Assembly (NCBI RefSeq): GCF_026151205.1
Contig: NC_087081.1
Span: 6,877,246 to 6,941,245 of the forward strand
Reading direction: 5' to 3'
Length of the DNA stretch: 64,000 nt
From: Bolinopsis microptera
Lineage: Eukaryota > Ctenophora > Tentaculata > Lobata > Bolinopsidae
The position numbers were made by a program, and so were the translations under genes. The notes below the pieces were generated by a model that had not been told where the DNA came from, ran no database searches, and saw nothing but the letters and a program-made list of their open reading frames with translations. Shown piece after piece: positions 9,920 to 56,375 of this stretch. Position 1 is the stretch's first letter; each line of letters opens with the position of its first letter.

Positions 9920-10990
9920 TCATCCGTGATGCTCTATTTGATAAACGTTGTTAGGTTGAGTAGTAAGCTCCACGTTATTACGTTTCCCTCCAATCCAGGT
10001 AGACCCAGTATTAGTCCCAATAAGTTTCCCTCTCTTCTCCCTGATCATATCCTTAATCTCCGCACTGAAACACACCCTGACCAGCGGGTTAAGTCCAGAT
10101 AACAATATGTAGATACCACACGAGCCTATAAAGTTAATGACAGGGTACCTGGCCTGATACACCTGATAAAGGACACAAAACACCGACATCACCAGGTTAC
10201 CCAGGTTCATGATCCCAATAGCTAGACACCCTTGTCTGAAGGACTTAGCCGAGTTCTCACACAATGTCTCCATCCTGCTGAGCAAGAAGATGGTGAGGCC
10301 GGATAAGAAGAGCCCCGTGAAACCTACCAGGGCGGGGATAGCAGCTACAGGTACTATGAGTAGAGGAGCGTACCCAGGTTCACTGTGACTGTAAACTAGC
10401 TGGCAGTAGAGGAAGAAGTAGACTTTGTGCTCTCTTACCCTCTCTGCTGCGTCTGTGAAGCCCACTGTTATCTCGTAGGATACCATCATGAGAGCAAGCT
10501 GCATGACAGTATATAGACCCAGTATTAGTTTAGTGGGTATTTTACAGAAGGGAAACTTAACGTTAACAAACCGACAGCAGGAGAGGAGAGCTGTTAGCAG
10601 CATTGAGGAGTAACCTGTTGATTTGAAGAGCATGGACTCTACCTGCTCTCCTATTGTCCCGTTTCTAACTGCTGGCAGTACCTCGTTAGAAAACAAACTT
10701 GCAGCTACACGTAGCGGGGAGTAGATGTTAGAAAGGAAGTCTGAGACAGCTAGCATCATGAAAAGGAGCCGAGTTAGCTTGAGTTTAGTGTTCTGATGGT
10801 AGTTGAAGTAGAAGACAACAGGGTTGAGAGAGGTGGAGAGGAGGAAGGAGATGACGATGGTGAGACCGAGGAAGTAGTTAGTGAGCTGCTCAAAAAGGGT
10901 GATGTCACTGCATTCCTCGGAGGTGAGGTGGCTGTAGTAGGTTTTGTATTCTTCAGGAACTGTGCTGGTGTTTACTCTACCGAATATCAT
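9920..10990 (-). CDS. Class A (rhodopsin-like) G-protein-coupled receptor, intronless
   Basis: A single uninterrupted 356-residue frame with an ATG start, predicted to be a seven-helix plasma-membrane receptor. Visible landmarks: two N-glycosylation sequons (Asn7, Asn110); helix 1 with Asn56; helix 2 with the LAVSD-type motif (Asp84); the end of helix 3 reads CCRF, so the conserved Arg (140) is kept while the usual Asp/Glu before it is Cys; helix 7 reads NPLVR (301-305) in place of NPxxY, with Arg for Tyr. A short polar tail follows (about 310-356). Length and single exon fit the many orphan receptors expanded in cnidarians. The altered DRY and NPxxY positions are unusual and may change G-protein coupling. 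The ligand cannot be told from sequence. Its promoter side carries paired X-box-like sites (11376-11428). A related fragment lies at 34227-34508. Confidence 0.85.
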   Translation of the reverse strand: MIFGRVNTSTVPEEYKTYYSHLTSEECSDITLFEQLTNYFLGLTIVISFLLSTSLNPVVFYFNYHQNTKLKLTRLLFMMLAVSDFLSNIYSPLRVAASLFSNEVLPAVRNGTIGEQVESMLFKSTGYSSMLLTALLSCCRFVNVKFPFCKIPTKLILGLYTVMQLALMMVSYEITVGFTDAAERVREHKVYFFLYCQLVYSHSEPGYAPLLIVPVAAIPALVGFTGLFLSGLTIFLLSRMETLCENSAKSFRQGCLAIGIMNLGNLVMSVFCVLYQVYQARYPVINFIGSCGIYILLSGLNPLVRVCFSAEIKDMIREKRGKLIGTNTGSTWIGGKRNNVELTTQPNNVYQIEHHG

Positions 10991-11375
10991 GTTGATATTG
11001 CTGCTGGGTTATGCTTTGTGTTGGTTGTTACTGCATTGTGTCTTGGTAACTGCAGGTAACTAGGAATGCCATCCTGAGATAGAGGTTGAGGTGATTGTGA
11101 GGCTTTTAAATGAATTATTGTGCGAATGTGGTGATGAGAATATTCGAGTTTGAAGAAATTAAAATCACTTCCGATCGATTGAGTTCAATGATAGGATTTT
11201 CCCCTTTAGAAACAGCGACCGGACAAAAAGATAAAAACAGAGCATTAGCCACAAAAACTGAAATGAAAAGCGTGAAAATCGATTAAACCAGATCGAAACA
11301 TAATTATGATGACAAAAACTGATTAAAGAGGGATAACTGCGTCAGGTTCACATGACCACCTGGTGTGTTACTCTG

Positions 11376-15558: not shown

Positions 15559-18090
15559 AAGAGGAGGACTGAGGACGGGGAGGAGGAGGACTAAGAGAAC
15601 GCGAGGGCTAAGGACGACGAGGACTGAGGACGAGTACGAGAGCGAGGACGAGGACTGAGGAGGAGGACTGATAAGAAGGAGGAGGAGGACTGAGGATGAC
15701 GAGGAGGAGAAGGAGGACTGGGGGAGGACTGAGGAGGAGGAAGAGGACTGAGGAGGAGGACTGTGGACTGAGGAGAAGGAGGACTGAGGAGGACAGAGGA
15801 GGACCAAGTCGAGGACTAGGAGGATGAGGACGAGGACTAAGGACAAGGACTGGGAGGATGAGGACGAGGATTAAGGACGATGAGGATGAGGACGATGACT
15901 AAGGACGAGGAGGAGGACGACTGAGGAGGAGGACTGATTAGGAGGAGAAGGAGGAGGAGGGTGAGGAGGAGAACTGAGGAGGAGGAGGAGGAGAAGGAGG
16001 AAGACTGAGGAGAAAGAGGAGGACTGGGGAGGACTGAGGAGGAGGAGAAGGACCGAGGAGGACTGAGGAGGAGGAGGAGGACTGAGGAGGAGGAGGACTG
16101 AAGAGGAGAGGGAGGACTGAGGAAGAGGAGCAGCTCATTGGTGAGGAGGAGGAGGACTAAGGACGAGGAGGACTGAGGAGGAGGACGAGAGCGAGGACGA
16201 GGAGGAAGACTGAGGAGGAGGACTGATAAGAAGGAGAAGGACGAGGACGAGGACTGAGGAGGAGGACTGATGATGAAGAGGAGAAGGAGGACTGGGGGAG
16301 GACTGAGGAAGAGGAGGACTTAGGGAGGACTGAGGAGGAGGAGGACTGAGGGAGGACTGAGGAGGATGATGAGTAGGAGGACTGAGGATGAGAAGGAGGA
16401 GAAGGAGGAGGAGGACTGAGGAGGAGGAGGAGGACTTAGGAGTAGGAGGAGAAGAAGGAGAAGGAGAAGGAGGACTGAGGAGGAGGAGGGGAGGACTGAG
16501 GAAGAGGAGGACTTGGGGAGGACTGAGGAGGAGGATGACTGGGGGAGGACTGAGTAGGACGATGAGGAGGAGGACTGAGGATGATGAGGAGAAGGAGGAC
16601 CAGGGGAGGACTGATGAGGAGGAGGACTGGGGAAGGACTGAGGAGGAGGACTTAGGAGTAGGAGGAGAAGGAGGAAAAGGAGGAGAAATAGGAGGAAGAG
16701 AAGGAGGAGGAGGACTTATGAGTAGGAGGAGAATGAGGAGAAGGAGAAGGAGGACTGAAGAGGAGGAGGAGGAGGACTGACGAGGAGGAGAAGGACTGAC
16801 GAGGAGGACTGAGGAGGATGAGGATGAGGAGGAGGAGGAGGATGAGGAGGAGGACTGAGGAGTAGGACTGAGGGGGAGGAAGAGGACTAAAGAGGAGGAT
16901 CAGGAGGAGGCTGAGGAGGAAGAGGACTGAGGAGGAGGAGAAGGAGGAGCAGGACTGAGGAGGAAGACTGAGGAGGATGAGGACGAGGACTAAGGACGAG
17001 GACTAGGAGGATGATAACGAGGGCTAAAGAAGAGGACTGATTAGGAGGAGAAGGAAGAGGAAAAGGAGGAGGAGAAGGAGGAGGATAAGGAGGAGGAGGA
17101 GGAGGAGGATAAGGAGAAGATTGAGGAGGAGGAGGATGACTCAGGAGGAGGACTCAGAAGGTGGAGGAGGACTCAGGAGGACTCAGGAGGAGGACTGAAG
17201 AGGAGGAGGAGGACTGATGAGGAGGAGGAGGACTCAGGAGGAGGAAGAGGACGAGGACGAGGACTAAGGACGAGGACGACTAGTGTAGGACTGAGGATGA
17301 GGACTGATGAGGAGAAGGAGGAGGAGGACTGAGGAGGACGATGAGGAGGAGGAGACTGAGGAGGAGGAGGAGGACTGTTGAGGAGGAGGAGGATGATGAG
17401 GAGGATGACTGTGGACTGAGGAGGAAGACTGAGGAGGACGAGGACGAGGACTAAGGACGAGGAGGAGGAGGACTGATTAGGAGAAGAAGAAAGCGGAGAA
17501 GGAGGAGGAGGATGAGGCTAGGAGGAGAAGGAGGAGAATGAGGAGGAGGACTGGGGGAGGACTGAGGAGGAGAATAAGGAGGACTAAGGATGAGGATGAG
17601 GACGAGGACGATTATGAGGAGGACAGAGGATGAGGACTGATGAGGAGGAGAAGGAGGAGGATGAGGAGGAGGAGGACTGGGGAGGACTGAGGAGGAAGAG
17701 GAGGATGACTGAGGAGGAGGATGAGGAGGAGGACTCAGAAGGAGGACTCAGGAGGTGGAGGAGGATGAGGAGGAGGACTCAGGAGGAGGAGGACGACTAC
17801 GAGGAGGACTCAGGAGGACTGATGGGGAGGAGAAGGAGGAGGAGGATGAGTAGGAGAAATGAGGAGGAGGAGAAGGAGAAGGAGGAGGACTGGGAGTAGG
17901 ACTGAGGAGGAGGAGGGGACTGAGGAGCAGGGTGAGGAGGACTGAGGAGAAGGACGAGGACGAGGACGAGGAGTCAGGAAGAGGACTGAAGAGAACTGAG
18001 GAGGAGAAGGACTCAGGAGGAGAAGGAAGACTTAGGAGGAGGAGGAGGACTGATGAGAAGGAGGAGGAAGACCAGGGAGGAGGAGGAGGA
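15559..18090 (+). repeat. 2.5-kb purine-rich GAGGAGGACTGA minisatellite
   Basis: Irregular tandem array built from GAGGAGGA and GGACTGAGGA words, with almost every base on the plus strand A or G except in the short CT of GACTGA. The frequent TGA breaks reading frames, and the open pieces on both strands (for example 16388-16780 and the antisense 17748-18242) are Glu/Arg/Gly or Ser/Pro low-complexity artefacts. Long purine tracts like this can adopt triplex DNA. Confidence 0.95.
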
Positions 18091-24847: not shown

Positions 24848-25005
24848 ATCTGGATTTCGATTAAGTATTTTGAAGATCTCTACGTGACGAGCAGAGGTTC
24901 TGCCTTGTGCCCTAGTAACCCTAGCAACCACCTAGCCCTATCCTGTAACCCTAGCAACCAGAATCCATTCCTCTTGATGCAGGCGAATAACTTTGACACC
25001 TTCAG
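24848..25005 (+). CDS. Exon related to 23422-23534, unknown gene
   Basis: Acceptor GTGATCAG|ATC and donor TTCAG|GTAAGT enclose 52 codons plus two bases. The peptide contains KYFEDLYVTSRGSALCPSN, an internal duplication of SNPSN / CNPSN, and ends NPFLLMQANNFDTF(R). The core (DLYVTSRG, then NPF...DTFR) matches ADIAVFTSKG...NPFQIDTFR of the exon at 23422. Both exons begin in phase 0 and end in phase 2, so they cannot be spliced to each other in frame; they fit mutually exclusive exons or two tandem paralogous genes. No acceptor exon downstream was identified. Confidence 0.4.
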
Positions 25006-35859: not shown

Positions 35860-38800
35860 AGTCTTGTTAAATCACGGTTAATCATCATTTAAATTATTAC
35901 GCCATGTTTAATTTGTTTATTTCATAGTCGCTATTTCCATTGTCTTAAATCCATATACATTTTAAACTGCAACCTTAAGTTTACCCAGTTTCAAGCTGGC
36001 TAGGTCAGCTGAGGGTTGTTCAAGGCACGAACACTGTGCCATTGAATTCTAAATACCGTACTCCGGACCAACATGCACCTCTGAATTCTGTTTTCCGTTC
36101 ATTTCCCACCTTTTTCTGTCCTCTGCCATGCACTATTTAATTATATAATATATAGTGCTTGGTAGAGAGTTGAAGTGTATGTACTTCTTGTCAAAGTAAA
36201 GATAGACCATTACTTCTTGGTAAAAATAGAGCAGTAACTTGTCCCACTTTTCTTTTCTTTCCAGATTTCTTTCCTTGCTGTTAATTACAATTCATAGCGC
36301 TGGCCATAAAGGTACGTTGATATATCGGTCAGTATACGAGTCGGGAGATTTCACTTCGGGTGAATCTGGGTAGGCGATACAAGCTTGCTTTCTCAATAGA
36401 TTTATTCGGATAACGCATAGTTCTGGAATTAAATATTGATCTTAACTGATTTTATCGAGTTTTTTTTTCTGGAGTCGACTCAGCGAGAAGCAGGATATTA
36501 GTAATCCGGAAATGATTTCGAACTTGTGATAAATAGATGTTCATACTGACACACTAGATCAACGTTAGATCAACCGGTTGATAGCCGGTTAATAGCCTGT
36601 TCGCATTACATCTATTTGCCGATAAGGCTAGTTCACTTATCGCATGTTCTTAAGTAATTACCAAGTGGCTTGATGATAGATTGATCCAAATCATCCAGCC
36701 GTGCGTGCACTGTGTGGGAAGTAACTAGTGGTAACAAAGGTAATCAGGTACCATAGTTACACAGTTACCAGGTTTCCATGGTACCTATATAGCCATATGC
36801 TGTAATTCTCCGAGACGTGTGAATTTTGCTGAATTTTTTCACACTTTTGTCGGTATTTCTGTTCTATATTTTGCAAGCTGCAAATTGGCCACGTTGGGTT
36901 CTTGCATTTTCCGTGTCTTGCACGAGACGTTTCCTAGCGACTTACCGGGGACATACAGTTTCTGCTCCCAGAAAAAAAAATCGAAATCGTCCGATATATA
37001 TTATCGTTATTCGCCCCATTCTTTCTGTTTCTGTTATCTGACGATGTCATTTTGACAGTTCAAATTATTCCTCATCAGAAGGTTCTGAGATGATAAGATG
37101 AAACCATTAGGTAGCGGACATTTGTGTGACTTCCACAACGCAATCAGCACTCATTACACTTGAGCTGAAAAAACAAGGCACTCCAAAGTTTGCTATATTC
37201 TTTATGACTTTATAAAGTCAGTTTCAAATTTCAAAAATAGCTGCTCCAAGCTCAACATGTGCTGTTGGTTGATAAATCGTTAATAGAAAGCTATTAATTC
37301 ACGGCCCATGGCGCCAGCGGCATGAGATCTTATGTTCTATATAAGCCACATATTTTACAACAGAAGCCTAGAATCTGTGCAAGTTTGACAGTTCAGATGC
37401 AGTTTCATTTTCGGCGTTCTCTGTCCCCTCGGGAATTTTAAATTTCCAGCTGTTACATCTTAAAAGCATTTATTAATTTTTATTAATGTTGATATTATTA
37501 AAATGCTATTTATTTATTAAAATAGGTCTTTGAACCACCGGCACCGTTAGGGAAAACAATTATATTTCTGTTCAAATGTGAGCTGTCTATTTCGAACGAG
37601 CGGGAAACCTCATGAGTCATCATGTATGACGTTGATTTCCGATCCTAAGGATTAGTTTTAGCATTGTGTTATTCATTTGGTTTGTTGATGCGGTGATAGT
37701 CGCACCCTTTGGGTGGAATCGTCGTTAAATTTTCCAGCTTTACTTTATTAACTAATAACGTATATAGTTGACAGTTGTTGAAAGTATTAAAGCATAGAAT
37801 TTATGTTAAAACTTATAGGGTCCGGGTGGAAGTCAGGACTAGATTAGGGGCACGTGTTATTCAGTTAAAGATGTTGATAAAGGGTAAATGTAGGGGCCTA
37901 GGGTAAAGGTTTATATGGGTTTGGATGAGAGTTTGAGGTAAGGGATATATTTTAATTTTCAGTTTTGGACGAATCAATTGTTTTATCATCGTAGGAATTT
38001 TTTCTCAAGCACAAATTATCAATTCATTCAATGACTCTTAAAAACTTCTGTTTTCAGTGCATGTTATTGCGAAATTTCAACACCGGATTTTACTGGAACG
38101 AATGAAATAGTTGCAATAACATAAACTTCATTTTCAGACTTTAATGGCCACTAAGTACTTAAGTACATCAAATTCTACTTTATTTGAGACTTGTAGGTTC
38201 ATTCAGTAATGTTTATCCGAGAAATACTTTGACTAGTCCATTCATATGATAATAAATATATTATATTTATAAATAATTATCAGTGAGTACATTACCCTGC
38301 GTGGCCCTACGATCCCATGAGGTCTTTGGCCATTTAACTATATTTATTCAATCTGAGGACCTCCACCCTTTCATCTATAAATCTACATCTGATCAACACT
38401 AATTTAATGTGATAATTGATGGGATTATTTGACGGCAGACCAATGACCGTCTTGAAATCACCATGGCAATCGTACTAATCACCATGGTGATCTTACCATT
38501 GCTCCAAATAAATTTACCACCTGGTTTACTTACTGCAATAATAAATTATGCCGATTTTTTATATCACTAGCCCGTAGTAATATGGTCTATTTTTGTAGGT
38601 CTAACGAAAGATTTTCATTTTTAATCTATTCTATTGTCTCTTTCTCTCGGAAATAACTAACCAACTCGTCTTTTTTAATCTTTTCTATTGACTAAGTTTC
38701 GGAAATGACCATGCGTAGTCGGCTGCGGTTGGAACACTATATTATAAAGCTGCCTATTAAATATAGTATATATTAGCAAATTATCATATTTGGATAAGGG
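35860..38800. other. Gene-free stretch
   Basis: No exon I can support. Overlapping plus-strand frames at 36819-37055 are hydrophobic, do not start with ATG and have no splice support. Confidence 0.4.
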
Positions 38801-39235: not shown

Positions 39236-39612
39236 ATGATCAGAATCACATCTCTGTCCCGGCCCAAGAACCGTCTTCCTCCCCTCAAGAAGAACAAGTC
39301 CTCCTCCCGTGTGTTACCCTCTCTCCCCATCCCCCTGAAGAAAAAGAAGAATGTAGTTGAGCCATGTACTATCAGTAGTAATCGTGCCCAGATTCTCTCA
39401 GAGGACTTCAGTCCTACTACATTCCTCCGTAGGAACGGGTTCGGGAACTTCCAGCGAGACCCGGACCAGGACGTGGACTACAGTGACGAGTCGGACAGTG
39501 ATTGTCGTCCCTGTACCCAGGAAAGTGCAACAGATCACTTCCTGAAGAGGGAGGTGAACTTCACAGTGCTGGCGGAGGGATATATCCCTGGGTTTGCCAA
39601 GGACAAGTTCAG
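39236..39612 (+). CDS. Coding exon, basic/acidic protein, unknown
   Basis: ATG at 39236 in a good context (ATAACAATG), with 125 codons plus two bases up to donor TTCAG|GTCAGT. The N-terminal 50 residues are Lys/Pro-rich with repeated LPPLKKNK / IPLKKKKN motifs that could be nuclear-localisation signals; an acidic segment (DVDYSDESDSD) follows; the exon ends REVNFTVLAEG and GFAKDKF(R). An alternative reading is an internal exon after TTTATTTAG at 39229. It ends in phase 2, like the other exons of this region, and its FLK...R end loosely resembles the end of the SPVAT exon. No family recognised. Confidence 0.5.
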
Positions 39613-40308: not shown

Positions 40309-41456
40309 ACCTCAGATCTCATAATGAAAAAACCAATGGGTAATGCTGAGGATGTTTTTCTGCCGACATCACCCGTAGCAATATCACCCGTAGCAACATC
40401 ACCCGTAGCAACATCACCTGTAGCAACATCACCTGTAGCAACATCACCTGTAGCAACATCACCTGTAGCAACATCATCCTTAGCAACATCACCTGTAGCA
40501 ACATCACCTGTAGCAACATCACCTGTAGCAATATCACCTGTAGCAACATCACCTGGAGCAACATCACCTGTAGCAACATCACCCGTAGCAATATCACCTG
40601 TGGCAATATCACCTGTAGCAACATCACCTGTAGCAACATCACCTGTAGCAATATCACCTGTAGCAATATCACCTGTAGCAACATCACCTGTAGCAACATC
40701 ATCCTTAGCAACATCACCTGTAGCAACATCACCTGTAGCAACATCACCTGTAGCAATATCACCTGTAGCAACATCACCTGGAGCAACATCACCTGTAGCA
40801 ACATCACCCGTAGCAATATCACCTGTGGCAATATCACCTGTAGCAACATCACCTGTAGCAACATCACCTGTAGCAACATCACCTGTAGCAACATCACCTG
40901 TAGCAACATCACCTGTAGCAACATCACCCGTAGCAATATCACCTGTGGCAATATCACCTGTAGCAACATCACCTGTAGCAACATCACCTGTAGCAACATC
41001 ACCTGTAGTAACATCACCTGTTGCAACATCACCCACCGGCTCTTTACCCAATATCACTGAAATATCACCTACTGTCACATCACCTGTTGAACCCAAAAAG
41101 AAAGCTGCTATTGAAGACAGACCCCAGAACACCTCAACCATCCATCCCTGTAGACGACCCTCCCGCAAGATAAAGATAGTCCAGGACCTGAATACCGGGG
41201 AATGTAACGGAGTTAACAAAAGGAGGAGTTCCTCATTCCACCAACAAGAGGGGAGGAGTTCACGGTGTTCTAGTTTAAAAGAGGAGGCATGTTCTGGATC
41301 TTCTTCTCTCATGGACATGAATCTAGGGAGGGAGCTGGGGGAGAAGGGTCAGCTGGGAGAGAAGAGTCAGGGTAAAGATTTAGAGCGTTTCTTGAAGGTG
41401 GACAGTTCAATGTTTGGTCATCTTCAAATAGACCAGGTGTTGATGGTGGAGTGCAG
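40309..41456 (+). CDS. Coding exon with about 44 SPVAT pentapeptide repeats
   Basis: The acceptor GACTACAG precedes 40309; an ATG at 40324 is also possible. The frame runs to donor TGCAG|GTTGGT at 41456. Residues about 16-238 (from the ATG) are tandem (S-P-V-A-T/I)n, encoded by a 15-bp minisatellite; interspersed variants are SLAT and PGAT. A unique C-terminal part follows: EPKKKAAIEDRP, a basic PCRRPSRKIK block, several Ser clusters, then LERFLKVDSSMF and MVECR. The unique part shows this strand is coding; the antisense frame (GDVAT repeats) is a by-product. Ser/Pro/Thr repeats suggest a disordered linker, possibly phosphorylated or glycosylated. It ends in phase 2. Its start phase does not match the exon at 39236, so the two are not simply adjacent exons. 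Confidence 0.5.
40366..41034 (+). repeat. 15-bp minisatellite inside the SPVAT exon
   Basis: About 44 units of ACATCACCTGTAGCA with a few recurring variants. A block of several units, including the CATCCTTAGCA and CTGGAGCA variants, is repeated as a higher-order unit (about 40470-40620 and 40700-40850), showing expansion by segments. Confidence 0.95.
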
Positions 41457-42540
41457 GTTGGTGTTTTTATTTTTATCTAGTTTTTAATATTTCTATTGGT
41501 TTTTATTATTTTTAATCTTGTGTTTTCAAGGAGGAGTTTTTAGCGTTCTTTGAATACTGATTAAGTGCAGTCAACGCTAAGTTATTTTGCAATTTCTCAG
41601 GTTATAGTTAAAGCATCATTATTCATTAACACAACATAATGTGATGAATGATATACTAACATTTTTAGCGTGAAACGTAAAACTTGACCTGAGCTGGATG
41701 GAAACTCTGGAAAATTAAACATGTTTCAATAGAAACCGGAGGTCTCATACGACTTTACGGGCTTATACGACTTTACTGTCTAAATTTATTTAAAAATTCG
41801 TGAATTGAATAATGTAAGGCTGCTCCCACGATTAAAAACTAAAAAGGGTAAAGTTTCATTTTTTGATTTTACTCATTGTATGGAATTTTTTATTAACTTA
41901 TTTACAAAGCGGTTTTCCATATCCGCACTTTTTTTCACCGATCACACAAGCTCACTATTTTAGCCGCTGAAGAAAACCGTACACTGTGTTAACCTTTTTG
42001 CTATTAGAAGTAGTATAGTGTAAGGCCAAAAAAGGGGCTGACCTTTATCTATGGATTCAAACAATTATATTCATATTGTTTAAACACATTTTAAAGGCCA
42101 ACATAAATCATTTTCGTTGACAATAAAAATAGGTTTGGATTTGCAGTATCTTCAGTTTTAAACTTCAATTTCCCCTGCTAATTCAATTATTTTCTGGTTA
42201 GGTCTGGCAGAGAAATACAGTCAACAGATCACTCAATCAATGAAGTTTAATTGATAATGTGCACCATGGATTCCAATTGATTGACTTAGAAACTATACAG
42301 TCCCTTACTCGAGTAGTTCAACAACACTTGCTGTTAAAGCTCCAAAATTTAACATCTTTGTTGTCCCCCTTTGTTTGAGAAGCTAGATCAAAACTTTGTG
42401 GAGCTTGATCAGTGGAGGGACAGCAGCCTTATTATATTAAATATCTGAGCTCAAAATTTACTCTACGCTAATGGACAAACAATGATCTGAAACATTCCTG
42501 AAATCCCCACAGTTTTCTATAGATATACTTCCACTTTAAT
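41457..42540. other. Gene-free stretch
   Basis: No exon supportable on either strand. Confidence 0.45.
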
Positions 42541-43600: not shown

Positions 43601-44339
43601 AGTGAATATCCTGCACAACTAAAACTACGGCAGCATACTGCCCAAGTCTAGCCTTGAAGCTGTTTTATTTTAACCTAGAGTGCTGTTATTCAGCAATTGT
43701 TCATTAGGGCGAAACTTATTTAAAAATAGACAGTGCTTGAAAATACGTTGGTTGTATTACTTTAGCAATGTGTCGGCGTGTGTTACCATAGTAACAGTCT
43801 GCATTGTTACCGTGTCAGTTGCTAATTAAAAGCAATTATACAATAATTAAGTTCAATTTCACACTGCTTTAATTCGAAACACCTTTTCCAATAGCTAACA
43901 ATGCTTGTTACCAATATACTGGTTTTCTTTCCTCGTATCTAGGTTTGATGTATCGTTAATCTTGGCATTTGGTATTTGCATAATATATCGTTATTCGTTC
44001 TGGTGTTGAAACAGTTTGTAAAATCCCTAGCCTCCTTTTAGTAGAAGTGATACGAAGAATTTCATTGACGAAGATTGAAATGCTTTAAAGATTCTGCTGA
44101 AGCGGAATTAGAGATAACTTATCTTATCGGACTTTATTTAGAGTTTAGACGAACATTACGTGGACGCTTGAGGGCATTCACTAATCCACTGTTTAGTTCT
44201 GGTGTAGAAGAGACCTGTTCTGGTGTAGAAGAGACCTGTTCTGGTGTGTTACCATAGCAATATTGGTGTGATGATAACCTCAAAAACAACACTTAAACAT
44301 GCGAGGTGAGACAAGTGCAAATAAACTACTAATTCAAGC

Positions 44340-45983: not shown

Positions 45984-46333
45984 GTTTACAAGGTTTACAA
46001 GGTTCACAAGTACCTGTATATGGAACACATACGGCGGGAATACGGCGGAAGTGCCGAGCTAATCCTACGAAATGCACGGTAAGTGTTATGTTGTCATGGT
46101 AATGCACGGTAAGTGCTACTGGTATGTTGTTACGGTAACGCTCCTGTCTTCCAAAGACAGTGTCTTTGGTAAGTACTCAGCTTATTGAAAATATTTAATT
46201 CTAGAACAATTTTAAACATTTAAAAGTGTTCTATAAAAATATAAATATGCAACAAGTTTGCAGTTTTAATGAATATGATATGGTTCCTTCAGAAAGACAA
46301 CCTCACCGCGACTATGACCCCACCTACTTCTAA
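45984..46333 (+). CDS. Last two exons of an unknown gene
   Basis: The penultimate exon (about 45984-46078) reads three QGL/QGS units, then VPVYGTHTAGIRRKCRANPT and ends KCT at donor ACG|GTAAGT. The last exon (46205-46333) follows TTAATTCTAG and is in phase 0 with it, reading NNFKHLKVFYKNINM, then SFNEYDMVPSERQPHRDYDP and TYF before the stop. Tyr-containing motifs near the end (NEYDMVP, DYDPTYF) resemble cytoplasmic signalling tails, but that is only a resemblance. Acceptors spaced 9 bp (AAGGTTTAC repeats) precede the penultimate exon. A duplicated donor word at 46101-46112 would add 30 bp and an in-frame stop if used. Confidence 0.4.
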
Positions 46334-46640: not shown

Positions 46641-47552
46641 ATGGAGGATGATCGTAAGGTGACCCAATCTCTGGACCAAATTCAAGGATTCGAGTATGAT
46701 GAACAGACAAAATTGAAGGACAGTGTTACTAAGTGGTTCAATACGCTGGGAAAAGAACTGAAAATCGACGACAGAGATATTTGTGGAGATATGGACAGAG
46801 AAATATTTATGGCTCCAACTGTCTATAAAAAGCATCTGGCACTTCGGCTTGTGGAAGCAATAGACCTCGTTCAACGGCATGAATGCCAGATGGCTAAAAT
46901 GGAGGAGATCATATATTTCTTGAAGACGGAAGCGTTAGAAGACAAGGATAAGTTGATCAGGCTGCAGGGCCAGCTGCTTGTGCAGAAGGACAAAGAACTA
47001 GAGTTGTTTAAGACGTCGGTTAAGAAGACAGTGCAAACAACGGTGGAGTCAGGGATTAAGAGCTACAGTGCAGCTGTACAACAGAACAGTGCAAGTGGTA
47101 CGGTCTGCAACAGTAACATCCTGAAGAAGGTGATGAAGAGTGTGGCTGCAGAGGAGGACAGGAGCAAGAACCTGATTGTGTTTGGGTTGAAAGAAGAAGA
47201 GGGAGAACAGCTTCCAGCGCTAGTAACCGCAGTTCTGGAGGAGATTGGGGAGAAACCTCACTTCGAAGCGACTAGAGTCGGCAGGAAGAGGCCAGGTAGT
47301 ACGACTATCCGACCAGTAAAGATCACTGTCCCAAGCTCTACAGCGGTTCAACAGATTCTGACGAAAACAGGAAGACTGAGGCTAGTTGAGACCCACAAAA
47401 ATGTATGGATCTGTCCAGATAGATCTAGCGAAGAACGAGCAACGAGGAAACATCTGGTTACCGACCTGAAGAAGAAGAGGGTTGAACAGACTCACCTCGA
47501 CCACTATATCCGGTACGGGAAAGTCTGTAGCCGTGATAAGAAACCACCGTGA
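46641..47552 (+). CDS. LINE ORF1-type RNA-binding protein (303 aa)
   Basis: Reads from MEDDRKVTQSL to CSRDKKPP and stop. Layout: an N-terminal region (1-70), a coiled-coil-like heptad segment (about 75-130, with ALEDKDKLIRLQGQLL), a linker, then an RRM-like domain opening KNLIVFGLKEEEGEQ (about 180-200) and a basic C-terminal domain with VWICPDRSSEERATRKHL. This order is that of ORF1 proteins of L1/CR1-like non-LTR elements, which coat element RNA and act as nucleic-acid chaperones. The frame is intact. No ORF2 with endonuclease or polymerase follows; the next 2.3 kb is untranslated sequence. It is therefore a non-autonomous element, a deletion product, or a retained ORF1-only gene. I chose 46641 because an upstream in-frame non-consensus start would place the hairpin inside the coding region. 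Confidence 0.8.
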   Translation: MEDDRKVTQSLDQIQGFEYDEQTKLKDSVTKWFNTLGKELKIDDRDICGDMDREIFMAPTVYKKHLALRLVEAIDLVQRHECQMAKMEEIIYFLKTEALEDKDKLIRLQGQLLVQKDKELELFKTSVKKTVQTTVESGIKSYSAAVQQNSASGTVCNSNILKKVMKSVAAEEDRSKNLIVFGLKEEEGEQLPALVTAVLEEIGEKPHFEATRVGRKRPGSTTIRPVKITVPSSTAVQQILTKTGRLRLVETHKNVWICPDRSSEERATRKHLVTDLKKKRVEQTHLDHYIRYGKVCSRDKKPP

Positions 47553-49874
47553 AGCAATTCATGTCTCTCGGACACTGATCAGTATTTGAATGAGTATTGC
47601 GTATCTTAATAGTTTTCGGACGTTATCTGTATTTGAGAGACAATTTTATAATTTATATACGAGCTATTTCTTGATTGTTTCACACTTCATATTTCATAAT
47701 TTGTTTCACACTTCATATTTCATAATTTTATTACTAGGTGGAGGTGACGTTATTGAGACTTTGGGCGGCCATAAACCTCGTGTTTTAAAAGTTGTCCTCT
47801 GTACTTGTTTCACTGACCCACGCTTTATAGCATTTATACATTTCGGCCCATTTTATATGTTTGTTCGATTTGCTGTACATTTGTATATTTGCTATTTTGT
47901 AAAAGTTTCAAATCAAATCAACAGCTGTGTCGTTACTTACTAACTTACTGGTTATTTTACTTATCTTACTGGTTATACGTCGCTGCCAACTGTCAAGTCT
48001 TGTATAATATGACGTTATAAGATACCACCGCGCTATTTCAACAAATCTTTCAAGTTGATGTGAGCAGAAACTTTCGCTTACCAAATAAAACTTGTTAACT
48101 TACTATTTTACTGCTCGGGTGACTAATCAATGTCAATCTAGAAAAGACCGCCGTGGCTCGTGCTATCACAGGATTATCACAATTGAAACTGAAGCAACAC
48201 GGTTTACGTCGGATCCCTTATCAGTCAAAAATTCTTAACTTTATGAAATTTTAATTACAGTTATTTTTGTAATAAAAATACGCATGAAGTGTCACCATGA
48301 AAATTATAATAATTTAGAGTAATTACAAGTGATCGTTAAAGTCTGGAATTATATTAGAATTTGGTACCCACATCTTTATGTGAAATTTGTGTAATTTTTG
48401 ATTTAATGGTCATATTTGATAACGTTCTAATAACGTTCCTCGTATTCGATGAACGAGTTTTAGATTTTACCATTCGTTGTACGCTATATTGTTTAAAACA
48501 ACCGATTATAGTTCTGGACTTTGCAGAGTCGCATATATTATAATAATAACCGATTTAACGAGTTTCTTTTCTGGAGTCGACTTGAAAAAATAAACTCATT
48601 AAATCAGTAATCATACACGAAAACAGGAAGACTGAGGCTAGTCGAGACCCACAAAAATGTATGGATCTGTCCAGATAGATCTAGCGAAGAACGAGCAACG
48701 AGGAAACATCTGGTTACCGACCTGAAGAAGAAGAGGGTTGAACAGACTCACCTCGACCACTATATCCGGTACGGGAAAGTCTGTAGCCGTGATAAGAAAC
48801 CACCGTGAAGCAATTCATGTCTCTCGGACACTGATCAGTATTTGAATGAGTATTACGTATCTTAATAGTTTTCGGACGTTATCTGTATTTGAGAGACAAT
48901 TTTATAATTTATATACGAGCTATTTCTTGATTGTTTCACACTTCATATTTCATAATTTGTTTCACACTTCATTTTTCATAATTTTATTACTAGGTGGAGG
49001 TGACGTTATTGAGACTTTGGGCGGCCATAAACCTCGTGTTTTAAAAGTTGTCCTCTGTACTTGTTTCACTGACCCACGCTTTATAGCATTTATACATTTC
49101 GGCCCATTTTATATGTTTGTTCGATTTGCTGTACATTTGTATATTTGCTATTTTGTAAAAGTTTCAAATCAAATCAACAGCTGTGTCGTTACTTACTAAC
49201 TTACTGGTTACTTTACTTATCTTACTGGTTATACGTCGCTGCCAACTGTCAAGTCTTGTATAATATGACGTTATAAGATACCACCGCGCTATTTCAACAA
49301 ATCTTTCAAGTTGATGTGAGCAGAAACTTTCGCTTACCAAATAAAACTTGTTAACTTACTATTTTACTGCTCGGGTGACTAATCAATGTCAATCTAGAAA
49401 AGACCGCCGTGGCTCGTGCTATCACAGGATTATCACAATTGAAACTGAAGCAACACGGTTTACGTCGGATCCCTTATCAGTCAAAAATTCTTAACTTTAT
49501 GAAATTTTAATTACAGTTATTTTTGTAATAAAAATACGCATGAAGTGTCACCATGAAAATTATAATAATTTAGAGTAATTACAAGTGATCGTTAAAGTCT
49601 GGAATTATATTAGAATTTGGTACCCACATCTTTATGTGAAATTTGTGTAATTTTTGATTTAATGGTCATATTTGATAACGTTCTAATAACGTTCCTCGTA
49701 TTCGATGAACGAGTTTTAGATTTTACCATTCGTTGTACGCTATATTGTTTAAAACAACCGATTATAGTTCTGGACTTTGCAGAGTCGCATATATTATAAT
49801 AATAACCGATTTAACGAGTTTCTTTTCTGGAGTCGACTTGAAAAAATAAACTCATTAAATCAGTAATTATACAC
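47361..49874 (+). repeat. 1256-bp tandem duplication of the ORF1 tail and 3' region
   Basis: 47361-48616 is repeated head-to-tail at 48617-49872 with about five substitutions. The first unit starts at codon 241 of the ORF1 protein, so the second unit carries an orphan copy of its last 63 codons (to stop at 48808) and the same 3' region. The junction shows only ACAC-type microhomology. Frames inside the 3' region (47590-47943, 48361-48543 and their copies) do not begin with ATG at their recorded starts or are hydrophobic noise. The near-identity means a very recent event or an assembly artefact. Confidence 0.93.
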
Positions 49875-50049
49875 TTTATGCTCATTAAATCAGTAATTAT
49901 ACTCTTTATGCTCATTAACCACTTCCTTAAAGCCGTTCTGTCTTAAAGGAAATTTAAAAAATATTCTAAAAGATCCCTGTTTAATGTTTATACCCTCTCA
50001 CAAAGATCTCTGTTAAAGCGAGAATAAGATCATTGATAGATCTCGTGGC

Positions 50050-50093
50050 ATGGATTTGACTATCAACCCCCAAACTATTGATGAATTTGCTAG
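50050..50093 (+). CDS. Alternative first coding exon 1a (MDLTINPQTIDEFAR)
   Basis: An ATG after a leader with CTGTTAAAGCGAGAATAAGA opens 14 codons plus two bases to the strong donor AG|GTAAGAT. Leader, ATG, exon and donor are duplicated 601 bp downstream (50651). The peptide is short and acidic. It ends in phase 2 like the other exons of the cluster. The downstream exon is not certain; 56874-57185 is compatible in phase. Confidence 0.5.
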
Positions 50094-50650
50094 GTAAGAT
50101 AAGATAGTACAGAAAAATGTGTAGGTATAACTTTATATTTTTATCTGTTCATTTGCTCCATTATTTCCCAGAAAAGGAAATTACAGGACAGTTCTTAACC
50201 TCGTGTCTAGAGACTAGAGGGTGGAATGAGGTTCAAACACTCAAAAACACGTACTGCTTATTTGTAGTATGAAGTATCAACATTCCTCCGTGTTTATACA
50301 CTAGCTTGTTTCAATGACAACATATTACCGGAATTATATATTTCATTTTTCGCTCTCTTGAGTGATTCTATTCATCTATATGATTAATTACTGGGGACGA
50401 ATTATATTAAAATATCATCATTCATCTTATTTGACATTGATTAACTTTGGTAACTCTCTTGAAGCTTTCCTCGTACTATTCGATGAGTTTTATGATTTAT
50501 CTTTTACTATTGGTATACTGTATACATCTATAGGTACACGTAATTAAAGACTTTCCTCAAGATTTTCTGTTTTTTTGACGATTCTTGTTTATAATTATAT
50601 TATTTCGCGGAGATATCTGTTAAAGCGGGAATATTGATACATCTCGTGTC

Positions 50651-50703
50651 ATGGAATTACCTGTTAAGCTAAAGGAGACTTCAACTTTTGACGAACTTGT
50701 TAG
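50651..50703 (+). CDS. Alternative first coding exon 1b (MELPVKLKETSTFDELVR)
   Basis: Paralogue of the exon at 50050. The leaders share AGATNTCTGTTAAAGCG and ATCTCGTG before ATGGA, and the donors share TAG|GTAAGATAA. The peptide ends TFDELVR against TIDEFAR. Conservation of coding end, start and leader with divergence of the middle suggests duplicated functional first exons. Confidence 0.5.
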
Positions 50704-50796
50704 GTAAGATAACATACTTCTTTAAAATCATATTTTTATTGTCAGGTTTCAAAGGTATAATATGGAGATCCTACACCGAATATGAAACCTTGCATT

Positions 50797-51080
50797 ATAA
50801 CATGGACTGTAACATGTGCAGTGTGCACTGTAACATGGACTGTAACATGTGCAGTGTGCACTGTAACATGGACTGTAACATGTGCAGTGTGCGCTGTAAC
50901 ATGGACTGTAACATGTGCTGTGTGCACTGTAACATGGACTGTAACATGTGCAGTGTGTACTGTAACATGAACTGTAACATGGGCAGTGTGCACTGTAACA
51001 TGGACTGTAACATGTGCAGTGTGCACTGTAACATGAACTGTAACATGTGCAGTGTGCACTGTAACATGGACTGTAACATA
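50797..51080. repeat. 33-bp minisatellite in the intron after exon 1b
   Basis: About eight to nine units built from ACTGTAACATGGACTGTAAC and ATGTGCAGTGTGC. At 33 bp it keeps five of six frames open (for example CNMDCNMCSVH repeats); these are artefacts. Confidence 0.93.
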
Positions 51081-51553
51081 GTGCTACAACAAATGTAGCA
51101 AAAGCCCGATACCGAGTCTTCCAACAATTTGCATTTTTTCTAGGATTACCCTGCTCCATTAATACGTAAGAACATAGTGAATGCTACAGCATACACGTGC
51201 TTTATTGATCTGGGATGAGACTTCAGAGGGGAAAAGAGCTATAATGCTTCATTTTATTATAATTTTTCTTGTTACATAATAAGTGTACAATCATAATTCA
51301 TAACCTTGTTTTATTAACCCTATGCTATTGTTAATAATCATATTATTTTTATTGTTACAATATATAAAGTTTAGAAATTGCTAAACAGGTTTTCATGAGG
51401 GGTTATACATAAATTAACTAAGTATAGACCCCACCTCGCTCAATCTTTCTGCTCTACAACTTAGTACTCTCGTTAACATTAGCTGTATAATCTTGATAGT
51501 AGAGGTCAGTAATTGTACTTACTACGGGCCACTCCCTCTGTCTTCAGCCTGCG

Positions 51554-51609
51554 ATGCCGACTGATCCTCTACAGTTACATTTCCCACCACAATTTCTCAC
51601 TCATCTCAC
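51554..51609 (+). CDS. Alternative first coding exon 2 (MPTDPLQLHFPPQFLTHLT)
   Basis: ATG followed by 18 codons plus two bases to the donor CTCAC|GTAAGT. The same phase as the other first exons. Its leader is not related to exons 1a/1b. Confidence 0.35.
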
Positions 51610-52152
51610 GTAAGTTTTCAAGTTCTACAGTTATTTTAACTTTCTACTTAGTTATCCTGTAAATTTAAAGCGATCGAATTTTTAAATTCTATTCAGGGAA
51701 AGGAAAATAACGGCGGTAAATCGGGATTTTACCCAGTGGCCAGATAGCGGCGGACGGTAAATGGAGTAAAATTTTGGCAAAAATTCTAAAACATCATAAA
51801 AATAGACACAAAGAAAACCTTGAATCTTAGTTATCGTATAAATGATTGAGCGGATTTTACTTTCGGCGGAAAAATAGGTGTGACTTTTCATGAACAAAAA
51901 AATAGAATTCCAAGAAATAGAGGTTCGATGATTAATCGATGTTTTCGTTTAATGGCTGTGATGTTTTAGTGTAATGGCATACTTTCAGCATATTGTATCG
52001 ACTAATTCTTCAATATTACAATTTGAATTATTGAATTAGTGGTAATTAAAATGAAATTTATTGTGTAATTATTTTTTACTAAAGTATGTGTCATATGCTT
52101 TATTATTAGAAATTTATTTCTTGCATTCGATTATAATACTCTCTGATATAAA

Positions 52153-52340
52153 CTTATACTCGACAGTTTGTCTATTGTGTCATCAATTTTACCTACTTTA
52201 AGTCAGAGTTCATACGCCACCGCAGTACCTCAAATAATCCACTGTCAAAATCATTTTTCTGCAGAACCCATATTATACTTTGGAATGGACTCCCAGGCCC
52301 TTTACAGGTAAGACAACTAATCTTTTTAAATCAGAGGTCA
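52153..52340 (+). pseudogene. Decayed fragment of the LINE ORF2 tail
   Basis: Matches 13715-13890 (CGACAGTTTGTCTATTGTGT through the TGGAATGGACTCCC motif) with substitutions and small indels, and breaks in frame. Confidence 0.8.
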
Positions 52341-53020
52341 GTCCAAGGAAAAAAGAAAATCGCGATAATTTAGGCAAAAAATAGTGGCGCCGCGACAAGC
52401 CAAAGTAGGGGAAATCGCAGGGAAAATCTTGAAAATCGCGGTGAAAGATAATATTTTTGCAGAGCTAAGATAGATGTCATATATTTGTAAACTATCCAAT
52501 TTTATCGTCCTCCCATTTATTGCTGAAGTCTGAACCCCCTCCCCCCCCCCCCCCCCCCCTTAGTTCCAAAACTCAAGAGAAGAATAATGTGTCTCAAACC
52601 TATGAACACTTGTTCGTACAAGATAAAAGTCGCTGAGAAAGGTAAAATTTAGAGAATGAGTACGTGACGGGAAGTTAAACGGCGCTCATAATTATATTTA
52701 TATATGATTATTATAGTTAGCTACTAATAACATGCTACTAAAGTACTAAGAGAGCAATCGACATTTTGAAAGTCAAAGTTCAGAGTCGAGTTTAGTTCAG
52801 TACCAAGTTTTGACGTTGTGTTAATTCATGTACTTTATTAAATATTTATTATTAAATAGCAATTTACGTTTATTAAAGCAAAACCCGTGATAGGATTTTT
52901 AAATTGTTCTTCTCATAGTGATTGTTGCCGCGAATCACGGACGATTACTGTGATTTTTTATTTTAATCGAATTTATAAGTTAGATTCTTTAAATCACAGT
53001 AGTGAAACTAAATTAGCAAT
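52341..53020. other. Gene-free stretch with a poly-C run
   Basis: Contains a C run of about 20 (52541-52560) and CGCGAAA-type words near 52350-52440 reminiscent of the hAT-type miniature. No exon. Confidence 0.5.
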
Positions 53021-53029
53021 AGACACACG

Positions 53030-53429
53030 ATAACAACACCGAACGACTAAAGACTCAAAGTATCCGGGCGGTGGCTGCAACTGAAAGTTGTATACTTCAC
53101 CCGGTACAACTCAAGCGAGTTCATAACCCTCCCTTGATTCTAAAAACGTTTGACGACAGCAAACCCATCAACCCAAAACCGTTGATGATCTAAAAAGTGT
53201 TACAGAAGGGATAGTCTACTCGCTGAAAGTAGCAGTCACTAATCAGCCTGTAACCCCAGCCGGAAATAATATAAAAACCAGACAAATCAGGGCACCCCGA
53301 CAAAACCTAGATTCCAAGAAAAACTCTGACAGTTCCATTGTTGCCGAGCAACTGTTGGTCCCGTACGTTACAACCACCACACCTACACAACACCTGTTTA
53401 ACTCCCACAATGCTTGTGAAATAAATTAG
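53030..53429 (+). pseudogene. Frameshifted coding remnant, unknown, retroelement-like
   Basis: Two overlapping frames read protein-like sequence in succession: the first contains VQLKRVHNPPLILKTFDDSK and stops at 53192; the second is open from 53154 and reads DDLKSVTEGIVYSLKVAVTN, then APRQNLDSKKNSDSSIVAEQ to a stop at 53429. One frameshift near 53180 would join them. The Thr/Asn/Gln-rich composition resembles LINE ORF1 linkers, but no motif is diagnostic. Confidence 0.35.
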
Positions 53430-55356
53430 GTAACATATATCTGATACCACATTGAAGGTAGCGAAGTGCTGATTGCTTGCTTATATCTGCTGCTGCAGCT
53501 CTGTTTCTCAAGTCTGGACGGCCTTTTTAACTTACTATTTCCATCCGTCTACCAGTATGGTGAGCTTGTTCTTACACCGCCAGTATCCAAACATGCCCGG
53601 AATACGACGTCCGTAGTACTGCCATTTCGCAGGTGTTTACCGGTTACATATTTTAAAGTCGCCCCAGCCGGCGAGTTGGGGGAGTCTAAATTGTGCCAAA
53701 GATTACGCTACATTACTACCGCAATTTAGCTGTGCTCATACCGCGGGATATTTACTTTAATGTGATCTGAAATTTGTACTGGCTCCTCGTATCGATATCT
53801 TTTGCTTTTCTTTCAAGCTTTCAACACTTTTGTTCGTGAAATTGCCCTGCATCTGCCTAGTTATTACCCGTGTGACTGTATGGTTCTAGCGGCAAAATAA
53901 TAAGAATATTCCTTTCTTCCGAACGGTTGTCCGGTCGGTTGTCCGGCTGGTGTTAAGATGAGACGGACGTGCCGATGTGCTTGCATTCTTTTAAAATTAA
54001 CATATCAAGTTCATTTTGATAGTTGACAAATTACCCGAAAAGGCATGATCCGTTGAGATGATTAAACAAATTCTTTTTCGCCTTCTATTTTAAATAATAA
54101 TAGTCAGTCACAACGAGGCCTCCAAATGCTTTGTTGTACAAAAATTACCAATAGTTATCACACCTTTCGGAGAGTATCCCGTTTTGAATGAGTACTAATC
54201 ATTGCTGTTACTCCAAGCAGCTTACAGTTTCCTTACCTTTTGTTAACTTTCCGAACAAATTGTATATAGCTTTGCAATCCTGAGCAGTATGAATTTTATC
54301 AAATGAACAAATTTTAATTGAACAAAATTGGAGGATCACACACGACCTTGTGAATCATTAATGACCTGTATTTACTGCTTCAAAGTCAAACAGGCATTTA
54401 AATCTGAATTAAAGACATATTTACAGTCGTTTTATTATTTAATGGATAAAATTATTCTTAATTACAAGACAATTGTAATTTAGCCGGTCACAAACTAAAA
54501 CTACCTCTCTTCAATTTGCCGGAAAAATTTCTTGCAGTTTTGCGATCGAACGAGAGAAAATGAATTTCAGTTAGACAACAAAATTTCCGGGACCAAATCA
54601 ATGCAGGATCTTTTTGCAATGGCACGTGCATATTTTCAGTTTAAATCGTACTCGTAGTTCATAATAAAATGTTTGAATCTTATAAATCATAATTTAATTT
54701 CTGTATTAAATTAAATTACAGTCATTTTATGAATTAATTTTGACTTTATTGCTACAAGACAACTCGTAATCCAGCCTGGGTCACGCACTGAAGTAACATG
54801 GAAGTTGTGATAACAATTGTTGCCACCTCCTAATTGATTTATAATTGCGTGCAAAAGTTTTATTGCTTTTTTATTGTTAATCTTTGGGGTGAGGTACATT
54901 AACATATTCATTAATTAATGAGGTAATATGTTGGTAGATCTGTCAATTTATTCAATTAGTGCTTTAATCGTCCCTGCTTGTTATTTTGTTATGTAGTATA
55001 ATTGTGCTTGAGTTGATATTTTGTTACGATCTCGTTCTATTGTAGTACCACTTCTGACATCCTCCACTACTTCTAGAGCTCATACAAAGACATCAACCCT
55101 CATCACGTGGTGAACACGTGACGGGTATTTGCACGTGGTAACCTTGGTAACGAGGGGTACCTGTAACAAGCTTCCGAATCTGCTGTATTTCTCAAGAAGC
55201 AGATTATTGCAACACACTCAACTTCTTGACTTCTCAACTGCTGTTATCCAGAAACATAATCTAGACACGGGGCTTGTCAAGGTTTAGCTTGTCTCCTGAA
55301 AAAAAAGGCTGGGATAATTAAATAGTGTTGCTGTAGCTGAACTCTCTCTGTCGGAC

Positions 55357-55457
55357 ATGCCGTTAGGAAGCTGGGCTGAGACCCTGGCTAAGTTGAGACT
55401 ACCGGAGTTGAGACCGGACATGGGCGGAATGTTTGAGAGCTGCCTCCCTGTTTACAG
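55357..55457 (+). CDS. Alternative first coding exon 3a (34 aa)
   Basis: ATG followed by 33 codons plus two bases to donor TACAG|GTAATT. The peptide begins MPLGSWAETLAK and continues RLPELRPDMGGMFESCLPVYR (last residue completed by the next exon). It is paralogous to the exon at 56171, with RLPxxRPxM...F..C.P.YR conserved, and the introns begin with related sequence (TTGTTTCACTTTC). E-box words and a GGTAACCTTGGTAAC word lie 200-250 bp upstream. Confidence 0.55.
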
Positions 55458-56170
55458 GTAATTTGTTGTTTCACTTTCACTTTCACATTTATAATTATGT
55501 GCAGCATGTTGTTTCACCTTCACATATATACCTCTAACACTAAGTTATAAAATAAATAATTTGAATGACAGGATGGATTGCTGGGGCTCACGTATATAAA
55601 ATGTTCAGTTCCTGACCTCGATCGACCATCATATTATTCCAGCTTCACATAATTTATTGTTTAACTAAATTCCAATGATTGCTGTGGTGTCTTTATTGGC
55701 TACTAGCATTGTAGCAGCATGTTATTTCACGTCGAATCTCCAATTGTAAGGATGGAGCTCCTCCCAGAAAGAATTGAGAACTATAGCTGCAAACCATACT
55801 AAAAATTGTATTTAAAATTCGTTTAAATTGCTTATTGCTAGCAATTTTTGGTTTCTCCTTTTCCCACGATCTTTTTACTCCGCATAACATCGGATAGTGT
55901 GTTGTATTACAGTCAAGTATGCATTATGATAACTATGCACTTTTGCATTATCATGACTATTATACTTGCTCGACTCACAAGCAAAGTTATAGTATAATAA
56001 AGGTAGATACAATTGTTATTTCTGCCCGCTTGTACAAGTTGTTCTGTCTAATAATACAAGGTGAAACTCGATAAATTTCTTTTCTACGCTTGCTGTGAGA
56101 AAAGGTTTGGGGTATCTTCCGGTGACAGTGGGGCTTTACAGAGGGTATTCACCATCTGAATGTTGTAACG

Positions 56171-56253
56171 ATGGTCACTCTATATGCGATGAGACTTCCA
56201 AACACTAGACCTGAGATGTCTAGAATCTTCAAGCGCTGTGTCCCCCTGTACAG
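56171..56253 (+). CDS. Alternative first coding exon 3b (28 aa)
   Basis: ATG followed by 27 codons plus two bases to donor TACAG|GTAGCA. The peptide starts MVTLYAMRLPNTRPEM and ends IFKRCVPLYR. It is aligned without gaps to the last 22 residues of exon 3a with about half identical, while codon third positions have changed, which argues for coding constraint. Confidence 0.55.
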
Positions 56254-56375
56254 GTAGCATGTTGTTTCTCTTTTCCATTTATTGGTAATATATTGTTTCA
56301 CTTTAAAATTTGTAGTTGACTTGATTAATTAACTTACATAACTTATAACTTCAGAATTATTAGATATCAAACTTT

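Follow-up and report, generated by a model that had tools for sequence, protein, structure and literature searches.

Candidate alternative first exons of a calmodulin-like calcium sensor gene in the ctenophore Bolinopsis microptera

Genes that place one EF-hand core behind a choice of N-termini have been described in several forms. In the KChIP genes (KCNIP1-4), common exons encoding four EF-hands lie behind several start sites with alternative 5' exons, and the N-termini are variable and in some cases acylated, according to one account of the family (PMC3973911). Caldendrin/CaBP1 is presented as a calmodulin-like core carrying long basic or short myristoylatable N-termini in three isoforms, with 17.38 kb separating exon 1 from the common exons downstream (PMC4110014). 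The protocadherin, UGT1 and GCNT2 clusters illustrate the logic of an array of variable first exons (PMC1885805). Here we examine a 64,000-nucleotide stretch of contig NC_087081.1 of the ctenophore Bolinopsis microptera (C10:6877246-6941245, hereafter the window), whose plus strand carries exons that may serve as alternative first coding exons of a single calmodulin-like Ca2+ sensor gene. The analysis took in the window, the 100 kb that follow it and the 50 kb that precede it, all in window numbering, and the genome searched comprised 264.65 Mb in 232 contigs.

An earlier reading of the window, made from its letters alone (the sequence-only reading), had claimed five plus-strand exons, each running from an ATG to a GT donor in phase 2, and had inferred a shared downstream exon in matching phase. 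All five were recovered with the starts and ends it gave them, and the downstream exon exists: an exon with a phase-2 acceptor at 84414, here called exon A, lies 28 kb beyond the last of the five (56171). We put at roughly 80% the probability that the window exons act as alternative first coding exons for a single ctenophore gene encoding a calmodulin-like Ca2+ sensor, joined to 84414.

The EF-hand core and its junction codon

Exons A to E, spliced in silico, give a 140-residue core with four EF-hands and no internal stop. The first base of exon A is the third base of a split codon and the exon has no start codon, so an upstream phase-2 exon is required. Pfam EF-hand_1 matches four stretches of the core, and all four EF loops fit the canonical loop pattern, including loop 1 (DKNGDNVINVEE) and loop 2 (DQDNSGTIDFDE), each canonical by sequence. 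The best 60 of 617 PDB matches to the core are calmodulins or calmodulin fusions, while its central linker is 2 residues shorter than that of calmodulin in alignment. Judged by the two features tested, the four loops and the nearest solved relatives, the predicted core is a calmodulin-like four-EF-hand protein.

All 12 exons that we list as candidates, from 24977 to 83823 (Table 1), read into this core in frame, with the terminal stop as the only one. These in-frame joins support, at the level of sequence, the earlier claim that many N-termini could feed into one common phase-2 exon. The junction codon encodes arginine in 11 of the 12 and threonine in the remaining one, and the residue before it is always A, V, L, F, Y or C. 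Phase had been used to select the exons; the junction residues had not, though they were noticed before the control was made. A genome-wide EF-hand search found, among the matches listed, loci on 12 contigs. Related EF-hand loci carry a hydrophobic residue at the equivalent place in 12 of 12 cases, followed by R in seven (C6, C7 at 3.26 Mb, L017, L022, L026, L031 and L035/L036) and by E or K in the others (L018, L019, L023, L028 and L030); R at this place is common in relatives, not universal. Since the family residue pattern falls at the same place, the junction would lie within the helix that enters EF-hand 1, with the variable exons giving the helix its first turns.

We infer that transcription would begin at or near each first exon and that each phase-2 donor would be spliced, across up to ~60 kb, to the single acceptor at 84414, completing an arginine codon (once threonine) in that helix. 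All products would then carry the same ~140-residue four-EF-hand core behind an N-terminus of 7-125 residues, or of 377 should the 40324 exon prove genuine. Two of the N-termini are long and basic, one (that of the 37915 exon) fits a myristoylation pattern and others are short; they probably set the sensor's location or binding partner.

Other downstream partners were considered. As direct acceptors for the first exons, exons B, C and E are incompatible in phase, and exon D is compatible but positioned after three EF-hands. A KLF-like gene, recognised by eye from its C2H2 zinc fingers, occupies 150267-152704; the first of its exons that we recognised is entered in phase 0 and is thus incompatible with the phase-2 exons.

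The gene appears best called calmodulin-like; its set of candidate first exons is unusually large, and its logic resembles that of the KChIP and caldendrin genes. As in the KChIP genes, common EF-hand exons lie behind alternative 5' exons, which here are candidates. KChIPs form a different protein family; their EF-1 does not bind Ca2+, whereas loop 1 here is canonical by sequence, and the KChIP figure legend gives at most six variants per gene against up to 12 candidates at this locus (PMC3973911). Caldendrin/CaBP1 likewise combines a calmodulin-like core with long basic or short N-termini, but has three isoforms where this locus has up to 12 candidate first exons. CaBPs have a longer central linker and an inactive EF2; here the linker is the shorter one noted above and the EF2 loop is canonical. 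Judged by these sequence features, the predicted protein is neither a KChIP nor a CaBP.

The protocadherin analogy had been offered in logic only, and to that extent it holds: several ATG exons in one phase precede one constant exon. The variable exons of the protocadherin, UGT1 and GCNT2 clusters are alike, near-equal in length and served by known promoters with a conserved motif, whereas those found here are mostly short, unlike one another and without a convincing motif. We think it unlikely that ctenophores independently evolved a protocadherin-like first-exon choice with a dozen or more N-termini, placing one Ca2+ sensor cell type by cell type. Should transcripts confirm the array, its alternative Ca2+-sensor N-termini would number about twice the six variants that the figure legend gives for the largest KChIP gene (PMC3973911), and front-end choice of a calcium sensor via the first exon would have arisen outside vertebrates. 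The exon list is concrete enough for testing in existing ctenophore long-read and single-cell data. The open-licence PubMed Central (PMC) literature yielded no paper on alternative first exons in a calmodulin-like EF-hand gene or in a ctenophore, and open-licence PMC papers on ctenophore alternative promoters and Mnemiopsis calmodulin isoforms included, by title, none on such a gene; both absences are weak evidence.

Two duplicated pairs of exons

Among the five exons first claimed, 50050 and 50651 (1a/1b) and 55357 and 56171 (3a/3b) had been taken for paralogous pairs. Both pairs aligned by blastn, and their local alignment scores exceeded those of all 200 shuffles (59.5 against a maximum of 35.0 for 1a/1b, and 42.0 against 24.0 for 3a/3b). 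The 1a/1b alignment (49972-50118 with 50580-50728, 68% identity) extends from the leader through the donor into the intron and includes, within the exon, a 9-base gap that is in frame. For 3a/3b the alignment (55394-55530 with 56190-56314, 66% identity) runs from mid-exon into the intron, and both pairs keep frame and donor. The description of the exons as tandemly duplicated stands for these two pairs only; no other listed pair aligned in self-blastn at E 1e-3.

A comparison of nonsynonymous and synonymous divergence (dN and dS) had been proposed for the two pairs. By the Nei-Gojobori method (NG86), dN is 0.35 and dS 0.64 for 1a/1b (15 codons), a ratio of ~0.55; for 3a/3b they are 0.35 and 1.17 over 22 codons, or 0.42 and 1.03 over 25 codons, a ratio of 0.30-0.41. 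These ratios are not near 1, and they come from very short exons, as tiny samples without a significance test.

Directly upstream of exon 1a lies a separate tandem duplication of 1258 bases (47361-48618 and 48617-49874), 99.6% identical, which is either recent or an assembly artefact.

Excess over chance and rival readings

We scanned for exons that start at an ATG, span 7 codons or more and end at a donor scoring at least 8. On the plus strand of the locus between 24 and 84.4 kb (60.4 kb), 15 of the 25 scanned exons are in phase 2, compared with a mean of 5.46 and a maximum of 12 in 200 dinucleotide shuffles. We then applied a residue rule comprising phase 2, a hydrophobic last residue and an R or T junction codon. 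Twelve of the 15 fit it. The control strands, totalling 360.4 kb, yielded four such exons; they were the minus strand of the locus and, each on both strands, the flanks and the region of the C6 paralogue. The shuffles gave a mean of 1.54 and a maximum of 5. The 12 that fit comprise nine of the listed exons together with 44271, 56748 and the open reading frame (ORF) at 46641, which probably belongs to a transposon. When 46641 is left aside, 11 of 14 phase-2 exons at the locus fit the rule, versus 4 of 31 in the controls (Fisher p 3e-5).

Several points weigh against a 12-exon array, and they are set out here and in the two paragraphs that follow with the alternatives they bear on. The proposed array is read from genomic sequence. 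The residue rule was fixed after the locus had been seen, and the control strands are not independent genome samples; the plain phase-2 count of 15 is independent of that rule. Donors are weak (scores below 8) in three of the 12 listed exons, 40324, 56171 and 83552, the 56171 donor reading GTAGCA, and several exons have just 7-19 codons and codon scores near zero. Only about six exons (39236, 83552 and the pairs 50050/50651 and 55357/56171) may be real and the rest chance, leaving a modest set of starts and a narrower version of the model we favour. We consider this possible, if doubtful: the exons at 24977, 37915, 46020, 51554 and 52285 have those 7-19 codons with codon scores of at most 2.7, and shuffling by itself produces the 1.54 rule-fitting exons given above, but the excess, 12 exons (the probable transposon ORF included) against a shuffle maximum of 5, is more than chance would supply. 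Chance may well account for one or two of the short exons.

The promoter that the sequence-only reading supposed for each first exon is putative. When the sequences upstream of the exons were searched for a shared promoter motif, the best k-mers occurred at 4 or 5 of the 12, none convincing among the many tested. Four of the 12 (24977, 40324, 51554 and 52285) have an acceptor-like site past the in-frame stop and ahead of the ATG, in a search that reached 120 bases. These four could follow an intron in the 5' untranslated region (5' UTR) or a trans-spliced leader, and one source describes leader trans-splicing as common in ctenophores (PMC8527503). If some exons were internal or lay behind such an intron or leader, the choice among them would be made by splicing from few promoters. 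This strikes us as somewhat unlikely, given that in the other eight exons the stretch from an upstream in-frame stop to the ATG showed no acceptor scoring over 5 in that search, and that the likeness of 1a and 1b extends through the upstream leader; that likeness and the acceptor count are, however, also compatible with trans-splicing.

Exon A scores 15.5, which does not set it apart within the top 46 exon calls, chosen without overlap between 0 and 100 kb. In the stretch from 57 to 84 kb, a call at 83803-83927, in the 83552 reading frame and extending inside and beyond the 83552 ORF, scores 19.9 with entry phase 2, and another phase-2-entry call at 77443-77548 reaches 13.8 on this crude measure. 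Exon A would thus be singled out by EF-hand homology and the junction residue, not by exon score. With further phase-2-entry calls lying in between, the exons might belong to different or nested genes and never converge on 84414, leaving 83552 as the sole first exon of the EF-hand gene; that exon by itself would complete the gene, and nested intronic genes are reported as frequent in a ctenophore (PMC8527503). We regard this as very unlikely, because the junction codon recreates the family residue, the exon excess falls in the one compatible phase, and the KLF-like gene further downstream is entered in phase 0.

Individual exons and other features of the region

The initial scan, covering 15-84.4 kb, produced 13 phase-2 candidates; four were removed and three added to give the 12 of Table 1. 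Those added, 50651, 51554 and 56171, were below the scan threshold and came from the sequence-only reading. Those removed were 17630 (low complexity), 27197 (last residue T), 41289 (overlapping the 40324 ORF in another frame) and 46641 (a transposon ORF by eye, which is a judgement only, Pfam giving no match). The exons at 44271 and 56748 pass the residue rule and were left out for negative codon scores. The ORF at 46641-47549 has ~300 codons and resembles ORF1 of a long interspersed nuclear element (LINE) by eye; Pfam returned no match for its first 290 codons at E 0.01.

Table 1. Candidate first exons and core exons in window numbering; donor scores for the five exons first claimed are from a simple matrix
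Feature	Coordinates	Strand	Donor score	Remarks
First exon, MQANNFDTF then R	24977..25005	+	12.9	tentative, very short; phase 2; codon score near 0
First exon, MGLDESL then R	37915..37937	+	11.4	candidate; phase 2
First exon, 125 codons, basic N-terminus, ends GFAKDKF then R	39236..39612	+	8.9	phase 2; codon score 36.7
First exon, 377 codons, ATSPV-type repeat	40324..41456	+	6.9	uncertain; phase 2 only at this weak donor; start perhaps acceptor 40309
First exon, MEHIRREYGGSAELILRNA then R	46020..46078	+	10.7	tentative candidate; phase 2
First exon 1a, MDLTINPQTIDEFA then R	50050..50093	+	9.0	phase 2; duplicate of 50651
First exon 1b, MELPVKLKETSTFDELV then R	50651..50703	+	9.0	phase 2; duplicate of 50050
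First exon, MPTDPLQLHFPPQFLTHL then T	51554..51609	+	8.2	candidate; phase 2; sole threonine-maker
First exon, MDSQALY then R	52285..52307	+	11.5	tentative, very short; phase 2
First exon 3a, MPLGSWAETLAKLRLPELRPDMGGMFESCLPVY then R	55357..55457	+	8.6	phase 2; codon score 11.3; duplicate of 56171
First exon 3b, MVTLYAMRLPNTRPEMSRIFKRCVPLY then R	56171..56253	+	5.8	phase 2; weak donor; duplicate of 55357
First exon nearest core, 90 codons	83552-83823 (L003:9552-9823)	+	7.6	candidate; phase 2; outside window
Exon A	84414-84532 (L004:414-532)	+		EF-hand 1; outside window
Exon B	84778-84884 (L004:778-884)	+		EF-hand 2; outside window
Exon C	85134-85195 (L004:1134-1195)	+		EF-hand 3; outside window
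Exon D	85672-85741 (L004:1672-1741)	+		weak acceptor 2.9; outside window
Exon E	87041-87103 (L004:3041-3103)	+		EF-hand 4 end, stop; outside window

In-frame stops lie 21 nucleotides upstream of the 37915 exon, 6 nucleotides upstream of 39236 and 18 bases upstream of 83552. The acceptor-like sites are at 24916 for the 24977 exon and at 51548 (score 9.3) for 51554; the 52285 exon, which the sequence-only reading had not listed, has such sites upstream. Genome searches at E 1 found no other copies of the 39236 exon, which is single copy, or of the 83552 exon, and Pfam assigned no family at E 0.01 to the N-termini of 39236, 55357 and 83552.

The sequence-only reading had placed two further exons, at 39236 and 40309, in the same phase. 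This is upheld for 39236, which has a fair donor, and is less sure for 40309, where the donor is poor. The donor of the 40324 exon is GTTGGT at 41457, and other donors of comparable strength within this ORF lead to phase 0 or phase 1; its one Pfam hit was to Extensin_1, driven by the repeat and short of the cut-off. A minisatellite at 40361-41087, inside this exon, is open in several frames on both strands; its plus strand encodes the ATSPV-type repeat.

Between the window exons and exon A, outside the window, a 1.4-kb palindrome at 72671-74082 is 95% identical to its own reverse complement. The KLF-like zinc-finger gene, also outside the window (L010), has its phase-0 exon at 150267 and its last exon from 151793. 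Within the window, a 362-codon ORF on the minus strand (9923-11008) looks by eye like an intronless G-protein-coupled receptor gene, and positions 16001-18000 are strongly purine-rich (GC 0.568, GC skew 0.76, AT skew 0.61), the rest of the window ranging from 0.33 to 0.43 GC. Elsewhere in the genome, EF-hand ORFs are regularly spaced ~1 kb apart at C5:17.013-17.026 Mb, with like spacing on C13 near 11.08-11.09 Mb and on C1 near 22.0 Mb. The only ORF of these spaced arrays that was searched, on C5 (L043), is photoprotein-like, with a full-length match to Mnemiopsin 1 (E 1.9e-127).

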